NCBI RefSeq assembly: GCF_016481275.1
Contig: NZ_JAEMNW010000002.1
Coordinates: 1 to 64,000 of the forward strand
Origin: Antrihabitans auranticaus
Lineage (GTDB): Bacteria > Actinomycetota > Actinomycetes > Mycobacteriales > Mycobacteriaceae
Reading direction: 5' to 3'
DNA: 64,000 nt
Part shown: positions 2,528 through 10,575 of the stretch, piece after piece
Layout of the letters: every line of letters begins with the position of its first letter
Position numbering within the stretch: position 1 is the stretch's first letter
Notes under the pieces: generated by a model
The model's input: the letters and a program-made list of their open reading frames with translations, nothing else
Told to the model about the DNA's origin: nothing
The model's database searches: none
Translations under genes and position numbers: made by a program

Positions 2528-2700
2528 TGCGAAGCCTTCATCGCGATCCTTCCGTTCTGTAGGAGCTACCCCCGCACGGCAGCGGGGAAACGCAACAGCG
2601 GTCGAGAAATGACCGGGCGCGCAGGGCACAACCGCGAGAGGGCGCCGACCACGAATAACGGAACCGAAGTGTCGGGAAGGTGCCCGGCGGGTATCTGTCT

Positions 2701-3723
2701 GTGGTGAACGAAGATGCAGCCAGTTTGGCCTCGCGAATGCCGCGCCCGCGCGGTCCCATGTCCTACGAGGTCATCGGTGCGCTCGCAAGCCACAGTCCCG
2801 GCGACATCTCGTTTGTCCTTCCGTCCGCGCGTGCCGACCCGTATGTAGCGGATCACCAACTGGCTCTTCATGTCTGCTACGAACTGCATTATCGCGGTTT
2901 CGACGGGGTCGACCCGGAGTGGGAATGGGATCCTGAACTCATTCGACTCCGCAACGCTCTCGAGAAGCCCTTCCTCGCCAGGCTTCGCGGCGAAGTCGGG
3001 CGCGGCCTCAGCGCTGCTTCAGTGCTCGATTCTCTCTGCGTGGATTCGCCCGACGGTGACGGCTTCTCGTACTACCTGCGTGATACCGGGACTTGGGACA
3101 ACTTCCGCGAGTACTTCGCGATGCGGTCGATCTATCACCTCAAGGAAGCCGACCCGCATGCGTGGGTGATCCCGCGGCTGACCGGTCGGGCGAAAGCAGG
3201 CCTCGTCGCAGTCGAATTCGACGAATTCGGCGGTGGCCGGGCCGAGCGGATCCATTCGGCACTTTTCGCCGACCTCCTGCGCGCGGCCGATCTGGACGCG
3301 GGATACCTCGCCTACGTGGATTGTGTTCCTGCTGAGGCGCTGGCAATCGTCAACTTCATGTCGATGTGCGGTCTGCATCGGGGTCTGCGGGGCGCCAGTG
3401 TCGGAATCCTCGCCGCTGCAGAGGTGACGTCGTCACCAGGCTCACGCCGCACGGTCGCGGCACTCGAACGCCTTGGTGCGCCAGAACCCTGCGTCCACTT
3501 CTACGCAGAGCACATCGAAGCCGACGCCGTACACGAACAGGTGATGCGCCGAGAAGTCGTGCAAGGGTTGCTCGACCAGCAACCTGCGCTCGAGCATGAC
3601 GTCGTGTTCGGAATTGTCGGTTCCGAAATTCTCGAAAGACGTTTGACGGAGTTCGTTTTGGGGAAATGGCGACGTGGTGTGAGTTCCTTGTCGCAAATGC
3701 TTCCGGCGCTGGCGATTAGATGA
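2701..3723 (+). CDS. haem-oxygenase-like iron-containing redox enzyme (HDO superfamily)
   Basis: About 340 residues. Three helices carry the likely metal ligands of the haem-oxygenase-like di-iron fold: an early ExH (CYELHYRGF), a central VEFDEFGGG followed by ERIH, and a C-terminal HIEADAVH. The set matches proteins annotated as iron-containing redox enzymes, relatives of UndA, CADD and SznF, which activate O2 on organic substrates. The substrate cannot be read from sequence. First gene of a tight three-gene cassette with a methyltransferase (41-base gap) and a CDGSH protein, which suggests iron or Fe-S input. The start is uncertain: GTG at 2680 has its purine tract overlapping the codon, while the GTGs at 2701/2704 follow GGCGGG. 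An ATG start at 2737 is also possible. Confidence 0.8.
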   Translation: MVNEDAASLASRMPRPRGPMSYEVIGALASHSPGDISFVLPSARADPYVADHQLALHVCYELHYRGFDGVDPEWEWDPELIRLRNALEKPFLARLRGEVGRGLSAASVLDSLCVDSPDGDGFSYYLRDTGTWDNFREYFAMRSIYHLKEADPHAWVIPRLTGRAKAGLVAVEFDEFGGGRAERIHSALFADLLRAADLDAGYLAYVDCVPAEALAIVNFMSMCGLHRGLRGASVGILAAAEVTSSPGSRRTVAALERLGAPEPCVHFYAEHIEADAVHEQVMRREVVQGLLDQQPALEHDVVFGIVGSEILERRLTEFVLGKWRRGVSSLSQMLPALAIR

Positions 3724-3764
3724 CCGAAACCGGGCCGCGCACGACCACTGGAGAGGTCTGATAC

Positions 3765-4469
3765 ATGCTCGAATACGAGGCTGTGGGGGGTTCCGATCTG
3801 AGGGCTCCGGTACTTTCGCGGGTCTGGGTTCCGCCGGGGGTTTACCGGCCGCAAGAAGACTCGTTGCTCCTCGCGGACGCTTTGAACGATGCACCGATCC
3901 AGGCAGGTACGCGAGTTCTCGACGTGTGCAGCGGCAGCGGCGTACTCGCGTTGAGCGCAGCTGAACGCGGGGCAGTCGTTGTCGCCGTTGATATTTCGCG
4001 GCTCGCGGTGCTGACAACGTGGGTCAACGCACGTATTCGGCAACTGCCGGTGACAGCGTGCAGGGGAGATCTCTCGCGTGCGAAGGAATTGGGGCCTTTC
4101 GACATAGTGGTTGCCAACCCGCCCTATGTTCCAGCGCCGGCGAGCGCCGCGGGTGGACCCTTCGCGCAGCGCTGGGATGCCGGATCCGATGGCCGAGCGG
4201 TGCTCGATCCCCTGTGTGAAGCGGCTTGGGAATTGGTACGGCCGGGCGGTTGCCTCTTTGTCGTCCATTCGGCCTTCAATGACGAGGCCAGAACGGTGGC
4301 AGCGTTGCAGGCGGGCGGGTTCGATGCGGAGGTTGTGCGGCGAACGACGATTCCATTCGGATCCGTGCTGCGCAGCAGGCGGGGCTACCTGAATACAGTC
4401 GGATTGTGCGAACAGGGTTGTGCGGTCGAGGAATTGGTGGTGATCCGTGGTGACAAGCCGCGCGAGTAG
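3765..4469 (+). CDS. HemK2/MTQ2-type SAM-dependent methyltransferase
   Basis: 234 residues. It has the HemK2/MTQ2 opening GVYRPQEDSLLLADAL, the SAM-binding loop LDVCSGSGVLAL, and the NPPY motif (VANPPYVP) that in this superfamily holds a planar amide or amino group for N-methylation. Relatives methylate glutamine in release factors, but the genome-wide release-factor enzyme PrmC is usually encoded beside prfA, so this copy probably has another target. It sits between the iron enzyme and the CDGSH gene and overlaps the latter by 23 bases, so they are probably co-translated. Possible roles are modification of a cassette protein or of a small-molecule product; neither is shown by sequence. Confidence 0.85.
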   Translation: MLEYEAVGGSDLRAPVLSRVWVPPGVYRPQEDSLLLADALNDAPIQAGTRVLDVCSGSGVLALSAAERGAVVVAVDISRLAVLTTWVNARIRQLPVTACRGDLSRAKELGPFDIVVANPPYVPAPASAAGGPFAQRWDAGSDGRAVLDPLCEAAWELVRPGGCLFVVHSAFNDEARTVAALQAGGFDAEVVRRTTIPFGSVLRSRRGYLNTVGLCEQGCAVEELVVIRGDKPRE

Positions 4470-4665
4470 CAGCAGCGCCCGGCGAGTCGAAATGGTGCGC
4501 GGCGGGCCGATTCTGATCGAGGGGCCGGTGGAAGTTGTGCTCGACGACGGAACGACCGCGCGCTCGGACCGGTTTCTCGTTGCGTTGTGCGCCTGCAAAC
4601 GCAGCAAGACCTATCCCTTCTGTGACACCAGCCACCGGCGTCGGAAGGTTCCGGTCGATGATTGA
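4447..4665 (+). CDS. CDGSH iron-sulfur domain protein
   Basis: 72 residues with one zinc-finger-CDGSH motif, CACKRSKTYPFCDTSH. Its three Cys and one His are the ligands of the redox-active, labile 2Fe-2S cluster of the mitoNEET family. The upstream segment GGPILIEGPVEVVLDDG is the usual short N-terminal strand region. The GTG at 4447 lies inside the end of the methyltransferase gene after a GGTGG tract; an internal ATG at 4492 is the other candidate. Last gene of the iron-enzyme cassette. It could donate electrons, iron or a cluster to the haem-oxygenase-like enzyme; that is inference from position. Confidence 0.9.
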   Translation: MVTSRASSSSARRVEMVRGGPILIEGPVEVVLDDGTTARSDRFLVALCACKRSKTYPFCDTSHRRRKVPVDD

Positions 4666-4728: not shown

Positions 4729-4754
4729 GTTTCAGAGCGGTCAAGCACGGGTAT
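4729..4754 (+). promoter_or_regulatory. SigF/SigB-like stress promoter of the CsbD gene
   Basis: GTTT at 4729-4732 and GGGTAT at 4749-4754 are separated by 16 bases. This is the actinobacterial SigF/SigB-type consensus (GTTT, 15-17 bases, GGGTA). It lies 55 bases before the ATG of a CsbD-like stress protein, a known kind of target for these sigma factors. Good motif match, untested. Confidence 0.65.
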
Positions 4755-4808
4755 CGAACTAGTGGCGCGCCATAGAGAGTGGGCCGCAATCAACCAGAAG
4801 GAGCTGAC

Positions 4809-5045
4809 ATGGCCGACGACAAGAGTGGACCCGCCGAGGGAGTCAAGGGTGTTGTCGAAGACGTCAAGGGCACTGTGAAGGAAGCCGTCGGAAACGTGAC
4901 GGGGAACGACTCCCTGGCACGCGAGGGCGAGGCCCAGCAGGACAAGGCAGAGGACCAGCGCGAGGTGGCAAAGCACGAGGCCCAGGCCGAAGAAGCCCGC
5001 GCTGAAGCCAAGGCCAACGAGGAGAGGCAGCGCGCAGAGCAGTAG
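4809..5045 (+). CDS. CsbD-like stress protein
   Basis: 78 residues, highly charged and Ala-rich, with no hydrophobic core. The N-terminal half has the CsbD pattern (EGVKGVVEDVKGTVKEAVG followed by VTGND). The C-terminal half is a repetitive Glu/Ala/Lys helix likely to be disordered or a coiled coil. CsbD proteins accumulate under general stress and their biochemical role is unknown. The ATG at 4809 follows a strong AGAAGGAG site; the in-frame GTG 30 bases earlier has none. It stands alone, with a stress-type promoter upstream and a strong terminator 16 bases after the stop. Confidence 0.9.
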   Translation: MADDKSGPAEGVKGVVEDVKGTVKEAVGNVTGNDSLAREGEAQQDKAEDQREVAKHEAQAEEARAEAKANEERQRAEQ

Positions 5046-6656: not shown

Positions 6657-7628
6657 TTACTCGATCAGCCCCTCGCTTTTCAGCCAGTCGTAGGCGACGT
6701 CGGCGGGGTCCTCCCCGTCGATGTCGACCTTTCCGTTGAGATCCTGCATCAGGTCATCGGTTAGGCGCTGGGAGACGTTGCCCATCAAAACCGCGATCTC
6801 GGGGTAGTCCTCGTACACGGACGACCGCATGACAACGGAACCGCTGTAGGGCAGGAAGAACTTTCGGTCGTCTTCGAGGACCGTGAGGTTCAGGTTCTTC
6901 ACCCGTCCGTCGGTGGTGTACACCATGCCGAAGTTGCACGGCGCACTCCGGGCGGTCGAGGTGTACACGACGCCGGCGTCCATTCTGGTGACCTTGTCCG
7001 ACGGCACGCCATCGGGCGCGTTCAGCGGGATTCCGTACTTCTCGAGCATGGGGACGAATCCGTCTGCACGACTGAAGAACTCATCGTCGACGCAGAAAGT
7101 TCTGTCGGATACCGGAAGCTTTGCAACGTCGGACAGCGTGCGAACGCCGAGTCGGTCCGCGGTCGCTGCGGATGCGGCGAACGCGTAGGTGTCGTTGAAG
7201 TTGGCCGGAGGCAGCCACTCGAGATCGTTCACCTGCTTCTCGATGTCGTGGACGCGCTGCCACAGCTGGGCGGGATCGGAAATGGTCTCGGTCTGGCCGT
7301 GATAGTTCACCCACCCGGTGCCGGTGTACTCCCAGAGGATGTCGGCGTCCCCGTTCAGCTGCGCCTGCCGGGACGACGCGGATCCCGGTGCGCCGGTCAG
7401 GTCGGTGACGTCAGCTCCTGCGGCGGCGAGATAGGTCGCGGTGATCTTGCCGAGGATGACGCCCTCGGTGAAGCTCTTGGAAGTCACGACGATCGAGGCG
7501 CCATCCAACGGCCGTTCGCCGCCTGGCAGCGAGGCGTCGTGGAACGTGCCAGACGAGCTGACCAAGCCGCACCCGGCGGCGACCGTCACACCGAGCGCGA
7601 GAGCTGCGATTCGAAGTTGCCGGATCAT
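6657..7628 (-). CDS. osmoprotectant-type ABC transporter substrate-binding lipoprotein (OpuBC/ProX-like)
   Basis: 323 residues. It has a lipoprotein signal peptide (MIRQLR, hydrophobic stretch, then VAAGC as lipobox), so it is anchored outside the membrane. The mature domain shows the OpuAC family opening IVVTSKSFTEGVILGKI and the ADILWEYTGTGWV segment that lines the quaternary-amine site. The expected ligand is glycine betaine, choline, carnitine or a related compound. Last gene of a four-gene operon; its ATG overlaps the stop of the permease gene (ATGA). Confidence 0.9.
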   Translation of the reverse strand: MIRQLRIAALALGVTVAAGCGLVSSSGTFHDASLPGGERPLDGASIVVTSKSFTEGVILGKITATYLAAAGADVTDLTGAPGSASSRQAQLNGDADILWEYTGTGWVNYHGQTETISDPAQLWQRVHDIEKQVNDLEWLPPANFNDTYAFAASAATADRLGVRTLSDVAKLPVSDRTFCVDDEFFSRADGFVPMLEKYGIPLNAPDGVPSDKVTRMDAGVVYTSTARSAPCNFGMVYTTDGRVKNLNLTVLEDDRKFFLPYSGSVVMRSSVYEDYPEIAVLMGNVSQRLTDDLMQDLNGKVDIDGEDPADVAYDWLKSEGLIE

Positions 7629-8362
7629 GCCACTCCTCGCGGGGTTGCGACCAACTCGACCAAGCGCCCGAGCCAGTCGATGGTCAACGCCAGGAGCCCG
7701 ACCAGAATCGCCCCCGAAATAAGCAGCTTGGGCAAGAACAAGGTCACGCCCGTGGTGATCAGGGTCCCCAAGCTGGTGGCGCCGATGAACGTGCTGAGGG
7801 TTGCGGTACCGACCAGAATGACCAACGCGGTCCGAACGCCGTTGAGGATCACGGGAACAGCGAGCGGCAACTCGACCTGCACGAGGGTCCGGGGTCCCGA
7901 GAAGCCGATGCCGCGCGCAGCTTCGATAGTTCGCTTGTCTACCTGGTCGATGCCCACGATGGTGTTCTGCAGGATCGGCAGCGTCGCATAGACCACGAGT
8001 CCGACTACCGCAGTTCGGAATCCGGTGCCGAGCCACATCGTGAGCAGAACGATCAGGCCGACGGCGGGGGCCGCCTGCCCGATGTTCGCGATGTTCACCA
8101 CCAGTGGTTTGAAGCGCTTCGTCTTTTCCCGGGTGAGCGCGATCCCGAGGGGGATTGCAATCAGCACAACGATCACTGTTGCCGTCAGAGTGAGCGTGAT
8201 GTGATCGATGATCGTGCTGCGCAAGTTGTCCCAGCCCAGTGCTGCCTGCTCGGTCGGCGTCAGCGTGGTCGAGCGGTACCACACGATGTATCCGACGCCG
8301 AGAATCAAGATGATCAGCGGCTCGAACCAGACGTCGATCGGCGTACGCCAAAGGCGGGTCAT
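7625..8362 (-). CDS. osmoprotectant-type ABC transporter permease (second copy)
   Basis: 245 residues with five to six transmembrane helices. The cytoplasmic EAA loop (EAARGIGFSGPRTLVQVELPLA), which docks on the ATPase, is typical of OpuBB/ProW permeases. A longer N-terminus than the partner permease adds one helix (LIILILGVGYIVWY). It overlaps both neighbours by four bases, so the subunits are probably made by coupled translation. It pairs with the permease at 9573-10217 as a heterodimeric channel. Confidence 0.9.
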   Translation of the reverse strand: MTRLWRTPIDVWFEPLIILILGVGYIVWYRSTTLTPTEQAALGWDNLRSTIIDHITLTLTATVIVVLIAIPLGIALTREKTKRFKPLVVNIANIGQAAPAVGLIVLLTMWLGTGFRTAVVGLVVYATLPILQNTIVGIDQVDKRTIEAARGIGFSGPRTLVQVELPLAVPVILNGVRTALVILVGTATLSTFIGATSLGTLITTGVTLFLPKLLISGAILVGLLALTIDWLGRLVELVATPRGVA

Positions 8363-9576
8363 GTCGCCGAGTCTTCTGAGTAGTCGCGGTAGGAGACGTG
8401 GCCGTCATCGGCCCGTGCGACGTCTAGTTGTCCGCGGATAACCGACATGATCGTGGCGATGGTGAGTGCGCCGGTAACGGCCCCGCGGCCGTCGGTGACG
8501 AGCACGCCGCCCTGACTTGCTGCGAGCATGGAGTCGAGTGCGTCGTTCAGTGTCGACGAGGGTGCGACCGTAGGGAGACGCGGATCGACGTAGTCGGAAA
8601 CGCGATCCTTGGTCGCTACTTCGTCGAGCGAGGGCCACGATCGTGCTCTGCCCTGGTCGTCGACGACAACGATCCAGGTCGCGCCCTGCGCTTTTGCGCG
8701 GTTGATGACCTCTTGGGAGGAGTCTCCGATTCGTGCGGTGACCACCGAATCGTGCTGGACGTCTTTCACACGCGACAGGGTCAGATGGGCGAGCGTTGCG
8801 CCCGATCCGATGAATTCCTCGACGAACGGTGAGGCAGGCTTCGCCAGAATTTCCTCCGGCGTCGCGTACTGCTCGATGTGCCCGCCCTCGGAAAGGATCA
8901 GCACTTTGTCGCCGAGTTTGGTGGCCTCCTCGAAATCGTGAGTGACGATCACGATCGTCTTGCCGAGTTCGTGGTGAATCGCGATCAGCTTGTCCTGCAG
9001 CCGGACCCGGGTTATCGGGTCGACCGCTCCGAACGGCTCGTCCATGAGGAGTACGGGCGGATCGGCGGCGAGTGCACGCGCGACACCAACGCGCTGTTGC
9101 TGCCCACCGGACATGTCCTTCGGTAGCCGGTCCCTGAAAGTGTCGATATCGAGTCCGACGAGATCGAGCAGATAATCGGTCCGCTCGGCGATGCGTTTCG
9201 CATCCCACCCGAGAACACGCGGAATGGCGCCGATGTTCTTGGCTACCGACCAGTGGGGGAACAGTCCGCCGGACTGAATGACGTAGCCGATCGACTGGCG
9301 CAGCTTGTCCGGGTCTTCACCGGTCACGTCGCGGTCGCCGATGTAGATGCGTCCCTCGGTCGGTTCGATGAGCCTGTTGATCATCTTCAGGGTAGTCGTC
9401 TTGCCGCAACCGGACGGTCCGACGAACGCGACGATGTGGCCCGCTTCGATGTCGAGATCGATCTTCTCCACGGCCGGCTTCTTTTGGCCGCGGTACTGCT
9501 TCACAACTCCGTCGAGCCGAATAGCGGCACCGGTGACGGTGCGCTCGCCGCCCGCACTTTCGGCAGTTTCGGTCAT
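8359..9576 (-). CDS. osmoprotectant-type ABC transporter ATPase with CBS domains
   Basis: 405 residues. The nucleotide-binding domain has Walker A GPSGCGKTT, Q-loop YVIQSGG, signature MSGGQQQR, Walker B VLLMDEP and the switch His in VTHDF. Residues from about 270 form a tandem CBS-type region (WPSLDEVATKDRVSDYVD and the later GGVLVTDGRGAVTGALT). In OpuA this region senses ionic strength or cyclic di-AMP and gates transport. Osmotic or c-di-AMP control of this transporter is therefore likely but inferred. Four-base overlaps link it to the permease genes on both sides. Confidence 0.92.
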   Translation of the reverse strand: MTETAESAGGERTVTGAAIRLDGVVKQYRGQKKPAVEKIDLDIEAGHIVAFVGPSGCGKTTTLKMINRLIEPTEGRIYIGDRDVTGEDPDKLRQSIGYVIQSGGLFPHWSVAKNIGAIPRVLGWDAKRIAERTDYLLDLVGLDIDTFRDRLPKDMSGGQQQRVGVARALAADPPVLLMDEPFGAVDPITRVRLQDKLIAIHHELGKTIVIVTHDFEEATKLGDKVLILSEGGHIEQYATPEEILAKPASPFVEEFIGSGATLAHLTLSRVKDVQHDSVVTARIGDSSQEVINRAKAQGATWIVVVDDQGRARSWPSLDEVATKDRVSDYVDPRLPTVAPSSTLNDALDSMLAASQGGVLVTDGRGAVTGALTIATIMSVIRGQLDVARADDGHVSYRDYSEDSAT

Positions 9577-10217
9577 GACAATCCCTTCGAGATGGTGAGG
9601 CGCCCGAGGAGGACGAGCAGGGCGTCGAATACCAAGGCGATGACGACGATGAGTACGGTCCCGGTGAGGGCCATTTCAACTGAGTTCTTGCCGCCCAATC
9701 GAGACAGGCCGTTGAAGATCAGTGAACCGAGTCCCGGTCCGAGCACGTACGCGACGATGGCGGCGACACCTACGACCATTTGCGTCGACACGCGAATTCC
9801 GGTAAGGATCACGGGCCAGGCCAGGGGGAGCGACACCGTGAACAGGATGCGGCGACGGGAGAACCCGATTCCGCGCGCGGATTCGATCACAGACTCCGGC
9901 ACCGACCGCAGACCGACAATGGCGTTGCCGATCACTGGCATAGCAGCGAAGAACGCGAGCATGACGAACGACGGGATGACGCCCAAGCCGAACGGCACGA
10001 TGAGCAATGCAAGCAGAGCGAGAGACGGAATGGTCAGAGCGACGCGGCTGCTCGTCAGCGTCAACGCCGATGCGAGCGGAAAACGGTACACCGCGATTGC
10101 GATGACAACTGCGACAAGCGTGCCGACCAGAACCGTTTGAAACGCGAGGGATGCATGCTGATAGGTCAGGAACGCGAGAAATTCTCCGCGGCCCTGAAGG
10201 TAATTCCAGATGTTCAT
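9573..10217 (-). CDS. osmoprotectant-type ABC transporter permease (first gene of operon)
   Basis: 214 residues with about five membrane helices and the EAA loop ESARGIGFSRRRILFTVSL. The ATG at 10217 follows an excellent AAGGGAG site. The frame stays open 51 codons further upstream, but that part is Arg-rich and lacks a start with a ribosome site. It is the first gene of the operon, so its promoter should lie in 10218-10350. Confidence 0.9.
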   Translation of the reverse strand: MNIWNYLQGRGEFLAFLTYQHASLAFQTVLVGTLVAVVIAIAVYRFPLASALTLTSSRVALTIPSLALLALLIVPFGLGVIPSFVMLAFFAAMPVIGNAIVGLRSVPESVIESARGIGFSRRRILFTVSLPLAWPVILTGIRVSTQMVVGVAAIVAYVLGPGLGSLIFNGLSRLGGKNSVEMALTGTVLIVVIALVFDALLVLLGRLTISKGLS

Positions 10218-10575
10218 GAAACTCCCTTCACGACAACCGTTGCAGGGTCTGCACCGATTCCGGTACGACGCGGGTGCCGGACGGCGACGATACCGCGCGA
10301 GTACCGCCTTCGTCAGGCGCCGCGCACAATTAGTTGCTCGCGAACCTTTGGTCGCTTCAATGTTGCCCATCGGCTAGCTGCGTAAACATCAGCTTGTCGA
10401 CCGAGCCGCCGATTCCGGTGCAATTAAAATCAGGCTGAAGTCGAATATCGACAGTTCCGTCCGGCGTGCACTGCGCGCGGGTGACGACATTCCTATCCGG
10501 CGGCGATGCTATCCAAGTAGTCTGAGTTTCCGCGATTGCGTTGACCTCGACGAATGCGCCGGCAGGAGGTATCGA
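10218..10575. other. intergenic region between divergent genes
   Basis: It must hold the promoters of the ABC operon (leftward) and of the membrane protein gene (rightward), but no consensus pair stands out. On the minus strand a frame ending in TGA at 10357-10359 reads sensibly for about 65 residues (QTTWIASPPDRNVV, then CTPDG and FNCTG). It has no ATG, GTG or TTG before it runs under the neighbouring gene. It may be a gene remnant or chance; it is not counted as a gene. Confidence 0.35.

Follow-up and report, generated by a model that had tools for sequence, protein, structure and literature searches.

Why should the gene of a heme-oxygenase-like dimetal oxidase (HDO) be kept beside that of a small CDGSH iron-sulphur protein and, in many genomes, that of an MTQ2-type methyltransferase (MTase) as well? 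The question is raised by a window of DNA, by which we mean the whole stretch of 64,000 nucleotides analysed here (positions 1 to 64,000 of contig NZ_JAEMNW010000002.1, assembly GCF_016481275.1, of Antrihabitans auranticaus), where the three genes, which we call the triad, follow one another on the plus strand within a genome of 6.5 Mb: HDO at 2737-3723, MTase at 3765-4469, and CDGSH from a GTG at 4447 or 4450 to 4665. A first-pass annotation, made from the letters alone, had read them as a tight cassette working as one machine. We shall see that the cassette is an exception, and that the association of the genes is widespread. HDO, CDGSH and MTase very probably make up one functional module, conserved among actinobacteria and most likely serving stress protection.

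Gene linkage and co-occurrence

Two surveys were combined. The first comprised 61 loci, namely the window and 60 others picked manually so as to spread over the HDO matches in samples of the family and of the class; the second comprised the best 80 of 592 HDO matches, and leans to close relatives. With one sequence common to both, they make up the 141 loci discussed here, a choice that favours HDO-bearing genomes and in which related genomes are not independent. A locus was called a triad when an MTase gene scoring 100 bits or more and a CDGSH gene both lay within 6 kb of the HDO gene. By this measure 97 loci carry MTase and CDGSH, 29 carry CDGSH only and 15 carry neither, the respective counts being 28, 25 and 8 in the first survey, and 69, 4 and 7 in the second. 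The statement, in the first-pass annotation, that similar triads occur in other actinobacteria is confirmed by these 97 loci, and the survey of neighbours in related genomes that it had proposed as a check left its grouping unrefuted.

What did not survive is the tight co-directional cassette. The order found in the window is exceptional (5 of the 141 loci): in 86 triads MTase and CDGSH are convergent to HDO, and six have yet other orders, so that a common transcript cannot be the general rule. In the closest relative, a member of the same genus (G002, with an HDO 73-74% identical), the order is MTase, CDGSH, HDO. On an HDO tree made with FastTree, the sole tree method used, the order of the triad changes at least ten times, a figure that may be too high, as 43 of the 154 inner branches are weak in the larger HDO tree. 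We considered that the genes might be held together by an operon and nothing else, and rejected this view because most relatives have them convergent and yet the co-occurrence persists. As to a fusion of HDO with CDGSH, sought by setting gene ends against gene starts in co-directional pairs, none was seen among the few pairs checked by hand, where the frames differ, in a search that was not systematic.

The coupling extends to the presence and absence of the genes in whole genomes. Eighty genomes were compared, 44 that carry this kind of HDO, picked by hand among the 61 after the neighbourhood survey (four loci without neighbours being left out), and 36 without, these being all the genomes listed by name as devoid of HDO in the family and class samples. 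The CDGSH domain PF09360 is found in 42 of the 44 and in 3 of the 36; when all surveyed genomes are counted, it is found in 56 of 61 with HDO against 3 of 36 without (p = 3e-17; the 56 being made of 42 found by genome search, 13 by locus and one partial match), and within the window's own family in 21 of 21 against 2 of 21. An MTase orthologue (at least 128 bits) is present in 27 of the 44 HDO genomes and in none of the 36, while weaker matches, below 90 bits, are spread over both groups and are taken as PrmC and similar genes. Two stress genes served as controls, ChaB (27/44 versus 7/36) and CsbD (41/44 versus 30/36), with odds ratios, in the same 80 genomes, of 6.6 and 2.7 respectively, to be set against 231 for CDGSH. 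A profile search of the 36 HDO-less genomes retrieved four remote HDOs (78-91 bits), with CDGSH in none of these cases.

As neighbourhood and presence or absence are coupled, we can understand the genes as forming one group, with HDO and CDGSH as its core and the MTase as an optional member. To this extent the first interpretation is supported, as far as linkage and co-occurrence go; it is not supported for the MTase as a constant part, since 29 of the 141 loci have HDO and CDGSH without MTase nearby. The 15 loci without neighbours tell more. In two of their genomes (G008 and G284) MTase and CDGSH still stand side by side at another place, and all seven that stem from the second survey have one CDGSH gene beyond the 6 kb limit, in one instance (L180) 6.7 kb off. 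The remaining six belong to a divergent HDO clade (39-45% identity) that has kept all ligand residues; five of these six genomes show no CDGSH (one of them, G320, being 75% complete), and in the sixth a partial match lies on a different contig. Outside that single divergent clade, CDGSH is a near-constant genomic partner of HDO; an MTase of the MTQ2 type often comes as the third. In three of the six divergent loci (L075, L076, L077), from genomes without CDGSH, a different methyltransferase-like gene adjoins HDO; it has no Pfam match and owes its name to a reading of motifs only.

HDO homologues were found in all four genomes of the genus (E<=1e-10) and, at E<=1e-20, in 223 of 301 genomes sampled from the family, 198 of 394 sampled from the class and 28 of 149 sampled from the phylum; among these 28, 18 lie outside the class. 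From its frequency in family and class we understand this HDO as common in actinomycetes, and as apparently tied to stress rather than to antibiotic clusters. Seventeen of the 18 loci outside the class were checked: CDGSH lies within 2 kb of HDO in nine and not in eight, and an MTase match was found in one. This last locus (L221) brings together HDO, CDGSH, MTase and a ligase of the GCS2 family, to which we shall come back.

The three proteins and their nearest relatives

The iron enzyme of the first-pass annotation is borne out as a member of the HDO family (PF14518, E=2.8e-55), albeit probably with another start than the position 2701 chosen there: its homologues begin near an LPxPRGP motif, which makes ATG 2737 the likelier start, GTG 2680 or GTG 2701 being the alternatives. 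The claim of a full set of metal ligands was right and can be extended to three histidines and four carboxylates (3H/4C), E137, E163, H173, E229, H259, D263 and H266 when counted from Met 2737, identical in 141 of 141 sequences. In a HMMER alignment these fall on E189, E215, H225, E281, H311, D315 and H318 of SznF, which we take to be the metal ligands of that enzyme, with the same spacing (26, 10, 56, 30, 4, 3). About a quarter of HDOs have a 3H/4C set, that of HrmI being 3H/3C (PMC13108848). To judge by sequence, the ligand set of the window HDO is of the SznF type, while its chemistry is inferred.

Several lines of comparison lead to the same relatives. A profile of 36 homologues, run against PDB sequences, gave only six matches at E<=0.001, all of them SznF (3e-18), HrmI (5e-16) or RohS (3e-14), two of the six carrying other depositor names and being identified through their PDB titles; with phmmer, HrmI is the top match and RohS the second. 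An AlphaFold2 model (mean pLDDT 94.5, pTM 0.92) is all-helical and, submitted to Foldseek, retrieves 27 matches at E<=1e-3, made up of HrmI (the best, 4e-10), RohS (5.5e-7), SznF, FlcD and 3bjd, a Pseudomonas aeruginosa structure titled putative synthase. SznF, HrmI and RohS are N-oxygenases (PDB titles; PMC13108848), so that by sequence and by predicted fold the window HDO groups with the diiron N-oxygenases. The question put in the first-pass annotation, whether the predicted ligands come together in a model, has here an indirect answer, given by the fold match to SznF and HrmI and by ligand columns that are identical throughout. The likeness has its limits. With the HDO domain of SznF, the streptozotocin N-oxygenase that acts on a methylated arginine (PMC13108848), our protein shares fold, ligand residues and spacing; unlike SznF it has no cupin domain, it is 19-21% identical, and it comes with promoter sequences of the stress type and a CDGSH partner. 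Its identity to HrmI and RohS, both known from natural-product pathways (PDB titles; PMC13108848), is 18-21%.

In our alignment of HDO sequences (A1), 26 columns are invariant, 19 of them beyond the seven ligands. One position seemed at first sight to follow the partner protein: residue 258 (A1 numbering), which precedes the ligand His259, is Glu in all 144 HDOs that are accompanied by CDGSH, and among the 14 that have no CDGSH nearby it is Val or Thr in 12. L086 was counted among these 14 although its genome has, on a different contig, a partial match to CDGSH of 41 bits. The pattern reflects only two independent changes and therefore carries no statistical weight, and E258 was dropped as a candidate CDGSH contact.

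The CDGSH (NEET) protein, 72 amino acids long and made of a single domain, is identified by PF09360 (64.4 bits, above the Pfam cut-off), in agreement with the first-pass annotation, and its gene is the sole match to this family in the genome. The three cysteines and one histidine expected to hold the cluster are present in 127 of 127 CDGSH copies, within the pattern C-x-C-x6-P-x-C-D-x-x-H; the published consensus is C-x-C-x2-(S/T)-x3-P-x-C-D-G-(S/A/T)-H (PMC11138216), and at its Gly the window protein deviates. All four cluster ligands are shared with proteins of the mitoNEET/CISD3 type, from which the window protein differs by its size, its single domain and a threonine at the place of the signature glycine (CDTSH). 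The CDTSH form accompanies the MTase: it is found in 91 of the 100 CDGSH copies whose locus also has an MTase match, weak ones counted, and in 7 of the 27 others. The overlap of 23 bases between the MTase and CDGSH genes noted in the window is correct if CDGSH starts at GTG 4447, and is 20 nt if it starts at GTG 4450. An overlap of 4-50 nt recurs in 21 of 27 loci of the first survey, when the CDGSH start nearest the conserved part is used and when one locus with HDO between the two genes (L100), together with three loci with a weak MTase match, is left out.

The NPPY methyltransferase, described as MTQ2-like at the outset, is indeed an S-adenosylmethionine-dependent enzyme of the HemK2/MTQ2 type: TIGR00537 matches it with 106.9 bits for a cut-off of 87, NPPY stands at residues 118-121, and all 28 aligned rows have NPPYVP. 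With its predicted model (METHYLTRANSFERASE, pLDDT 92.6), the nine best Foldseek matches are human HEMK2/N6AMT1/KMT9 structures (E 4e-14 to 5e-13). HEMK2 methylates a GQ motif, and we looked for such a motif in the neighbours. At the HDO site PRLTG[Q/R]AKA, 36 of the 97 triads and 10 of the 44 other loci have GQ, the window having GR; in the CDGSH protein GQ occurs, at any place, in 7 of 53. These are too few for GQ to be a conserved MTase target, and it was rejected as such, though the MTase may act on GQ where it is present. The MTase resembles the HEMK2/N6AMT1-Trm112 (MTQ2) system through the NPPY and W...G-R...D motifs as well as through structure, and departs from it by an identity of 25-27% and by its tie to HDO and CDGSH, without any orthologue in the 36 HDO-less genomes.

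Stress-type promoter sequences and surroundings

Upstream of HDO, at 2669-2694 (+), lies a promoter-like site of the SigB/SigF type, GTGT-N16-GGGTAT. Its distance to ATG 2737, 68 nt when counted from the start of the site, is the one most often seen for such sites in HDO homologues. If this -35/-10 pair is used, transcription would start near 2701. The pattern, modelled on published SigB/SigF-type sites (PMC8346170; PMC7693655), has five matches on the plus strand and three on the minus strand in the whole window. We searched for G..T-N14-17-GGGTA[TC] up to 300 nt before HDO in 111 loci, leaving aside 29 in which HDO is immediately preceded by a ligase gene and one whose sequence is too short. 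It is present in 32 of the 111, against 101 of 1315 regions upstream of other open reading frames (called mechanically and grouped in clusters of three or more, six clusters being excluded) and 401 of 12922 windows drawn at random in the same loci; among the 41 pattern matches, 31 start 51-100 nt before the conserved HDO start. In 28 mycobacterial triad loci, listed by hand and mutually related (L179 and five loci without MTase being left out), the looser GTTT-N14-17-GGGNA, picked after seeing a published table, occurs before MTase in 26 and before HDO in 25, for a background of 100 in 2588 windows and at most 2 in 28 shuffled upstream regions. Promoter sequences that look like those of SigB or SigF are thus enriched upstream of HDO, and in mycobacteria upstream of the MTase-CDGSH unit as well.

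A transcriptome fits this picture. In a sigF mutant of Mycobacterium smegmatis, the 'Methylase, putative' MSMEG_1771, the two genes that follow it and a carboxylate-amine ligase, located elsewhere and not among the three neighbours, all decreased; the sigF promoter is placed 29 nt before the putative methylase and 696 nt before the next gene, and the third neighbour has a site of its own (PMC4694148). The difference of 667 nt fits an MTase-CDGSH unit, which measures 677 nt in L183 with one possible start, and we infer that MSMEG_1771 and its two neighbours are the triad. A synteny check against M. smegmatis found a P450 gene beside HDO in one of the 80 loci of the second survey, a result that carries no information. 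That the module is stress-regulated we hold to be probable, with good confidence. The first-pass annotation, while right on the three proteins, had overlooked both these promoter sequences and the GCS2 ligase partner.

This ligase, a carboxylate-amine ligase, is the other recurrent neighbour. In 29 of the 141 loci its gene ends, on the same strand, at most about 72 nt from the estimated HDO start; these are 20 Pseudonocardiaceae, three Streptomycetaceae, one Thermomonosporaceae, three members of family f19, one of f21 and one of the window's family. The ligases were grouped by BLAST, and the seven adjacent members tested all match GCS2 (PF04107). In the genome of the window PF04107 has four matches, none of them in the window.

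Other stress genes surround the locus, among them CsbD, sigma factor and catalase genes. Behind the triad, a second and strict SigB/SigF-type site, GTTT-N16-GGGTAT (4729-4754, +), precedes a gene for a CsbD-like general stress protein (4779-5045, +; only 37.3 bits for a Pfam cut-off of 40); both are context, outside the triad. A cluster of genes named catalase is found in 12 of the 141 loci, and the four members tested all match PF00199. One might then think that the genes merely travel in stress islands under SigB/SigF-type control, without joint biochemistry. The promoter sequences and the company of CsbD, sigma factor and catalase genes speak for it; yet ChaB and CsbD, with the modest odds ratios given above, fall far behind CDGSH, which is kept even where it has moved away from the locus, and the triad stayed together through its many changes of order. 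We regard this explanation as quite improbable.

Some neighbours are noted for their own sake. About 2 kb behind the triad, genes of an OpuC-type osmoprotectant ABC transporter (6657-10370, -) encode a PF04069 substrate-binding protein, two permeases and an ATPase with a CBS domain. Divergent from HDO, a protein of 157 amino acids (2054-2527, -) has no Pfam or NCBIfam match; L146 has a match to it. On a Streptomyces plasmid a VOC/glyoxalase-like protein (PF18029, L202:4585-5001, +) overlaps the HDO start, and this plasmid also bears CDGSH, a HemK2/MTQ2 MTase and gas-vesicle genes. An oxidoreductase cluster lies within about 6 kb of HDO in 29 of the 141 loci, mostly mycobacteria (for example L185:4876-5862, -); the one member tested is luciferase-like (PF00296).

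A putative stress pathway and its rivals

How might these pieces work together? Our best explanation, which stands in our judgement about evenly between belief and doubt, is a stress-induced diiron oxygenase that has a CDGSH protein as its own redox or iron partner and probably N-oxygenates a small substrate, with the MTase as an option. Under general stress (oxidative, osmotic or drying), a polymerase with a sigma-B/F-type factor would transcribe the genes of the module. Diferrous HDO would activate O2 to a peroxo-diferric species and oxidise, most likely N-oxygenate, a small amino-acid-derived substrate; the [2Fe-2S] protein would be its dedicated electron donor, the source of iron for a labile diiron site, or both. 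Where present, the MTase may N-methylate substrate or product, and the GCS2 ligase may supply a substrate of the gamma-glutamyl type. The product would protect the stressed cell. The sketch given in the first-pass annotation, O2 activation, N-methylation and a cluster as source of electrons or iron, thus remains plausible. The parts of this scheme are not equally firm: we lean towards a direct action of CDGSH on HDO, and hold the N-oxygenation of a small molecule by HDO as a tentative idea, somewhat short of an even chance.

Two HDO systems help to place it. In mangotoxin synthesis MboA, an HDO, has a genomically linked redox partner bearing Fe2S2, MboB, and the pair is perhaps the first characterized one of an HDO with a dedicated redox partner; unlike the CDGSH protein, MboB is an NAD(P)H-flavin-Fe2S2 reductase, and MboA has three histidines and three carboxylates and forms an alkyne (PMC13185094). 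The other is DtpC of Acinetobacter baumannii, an HDO co-transcribed with catalase, which protects dried cells and limits H2O2 in them; it is proteobacterial, six ligand residues are reported for it, and the main text of that article makes no mention of CDGSH (PMC13232832). According to its authors no other HDO is known to have to do with oxidative stress or drying, and the functions that they see as possible are iron binding, scavenging and the supply of a protective small molecule (PMC13232832). By analogy, the three options may apply equally to the window HDO.

Scavenging would mean that HDO reduces O2 or H2O2 with electrons from CDGSH and makes no metabolite, the MTase modifying a protein and being incidental. 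Rubrerythrin, which works with rubredoxin as electron source, offers an analogy, and the co-occurrence of CDGSH with HDO as well as the catalase genes of 12 loci go in the same direction. SznF, a known 3H/4C HDO, forms its peroxo intermediate without substrate (PMC13108848), and the limitation of H2O2 by DtpC in dried cells can be read likewise, while DtpC gave no protection against acute H2O2 (PMC13232832). The frequent MTase and, in places, the GCS2 ligase beside HDO suggest a small-molecule route instead, as do the 19 invariant columns beyond the ligands, which a substrate site might need. Scavenging is unlikely in our eyes, while deserving serious attention. Iron handling, with CDGSH delivering iron or a cluster to a labile HDO site and HDO mainly sequestering iron during stress, would accord with the lability of HDO clusters (PMC13108848, section 4), with the transfer of clusters by NEET proteins in vitro (PMC11138216) and with the better survival to drying of dtpC mutants given an iron chelator (PMC13232832). 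A store of two irons would be a costly way of binding iron, and the conserved non-ligand residues and the linked MTase would be left unexplained; we grant it slight probability. It is the linked MTase and ligase that lead us to prefer the small-molecule option over scavenging and iron binding.

Several observations weigh against the scheme we prefer. MTase and CDGSH mostly face HDO head-on. The divergent clade, where five of six genomes show no CDGSH, and the 17 loci outside the class, of which eight lack CDGSH within 2 kb and 16 give no MTase match, indicate that an HDO of this kind does not always need CDGSH, nor the MTase. The promoter evidence is one of sequence only and covers less than a third of the HDO genes, and the looser mycobacterial pattern was a choice made with the published sites in view. 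The link with GCS2 is mostly one of Pseudonocardiaceae (20 of 29). Finally, HDOs with similar ligand sets catalyse different reactions (PMC13108848, section 11), so that fold and ligands alone do not fix the chemistry.

A bolder view may be formulated. In the ergothioneine pathway, EgtA, EgtB and EgtD are a GCS2 ligase, a non-heme iron oxygenase and an N-methyltransferase; the likeness to our module is loose and a matter of logic. One could imagine that CDGSH (NEET) proteins of actinomycetes are mostly partners dedicated to one SznF-type diiron oxygenase which, with the MTQ2-type MTase and in some lineages the GCS2 ligase, would make up an undescribed stress-induced pathway to a protective N-oxygenated, N-methylated metabolite, following an ergothioneine-like logic. 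This is doubtful, and we put it forward as speculation. In the open-access full-text literature, most subscription papers lying outside it, we found no description of an HDO/CDGSH/MTase module, and no paper joining CDGSH with heme-oxygenase-like diiron proteins, with a gene cluster of heme-oxygenase-like protein and methyltransferase, with an iron-containing redox enzyme, or with SigB and Streptomyces.

The consequences would reach beyond this locus. Should CDGSH serve HDO, there would be a concrete client for bacterial CDGSH proteins, and next to MboB a second type of dedicated redox partner for HDOs. As three small soluble proteins are involved, the prediction can be put to a direct test. 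The recurrence of the module across actinobacteria, behind promoter sequences of the stress type, points to a widespread and as yet undescribed pathway of stress protection.

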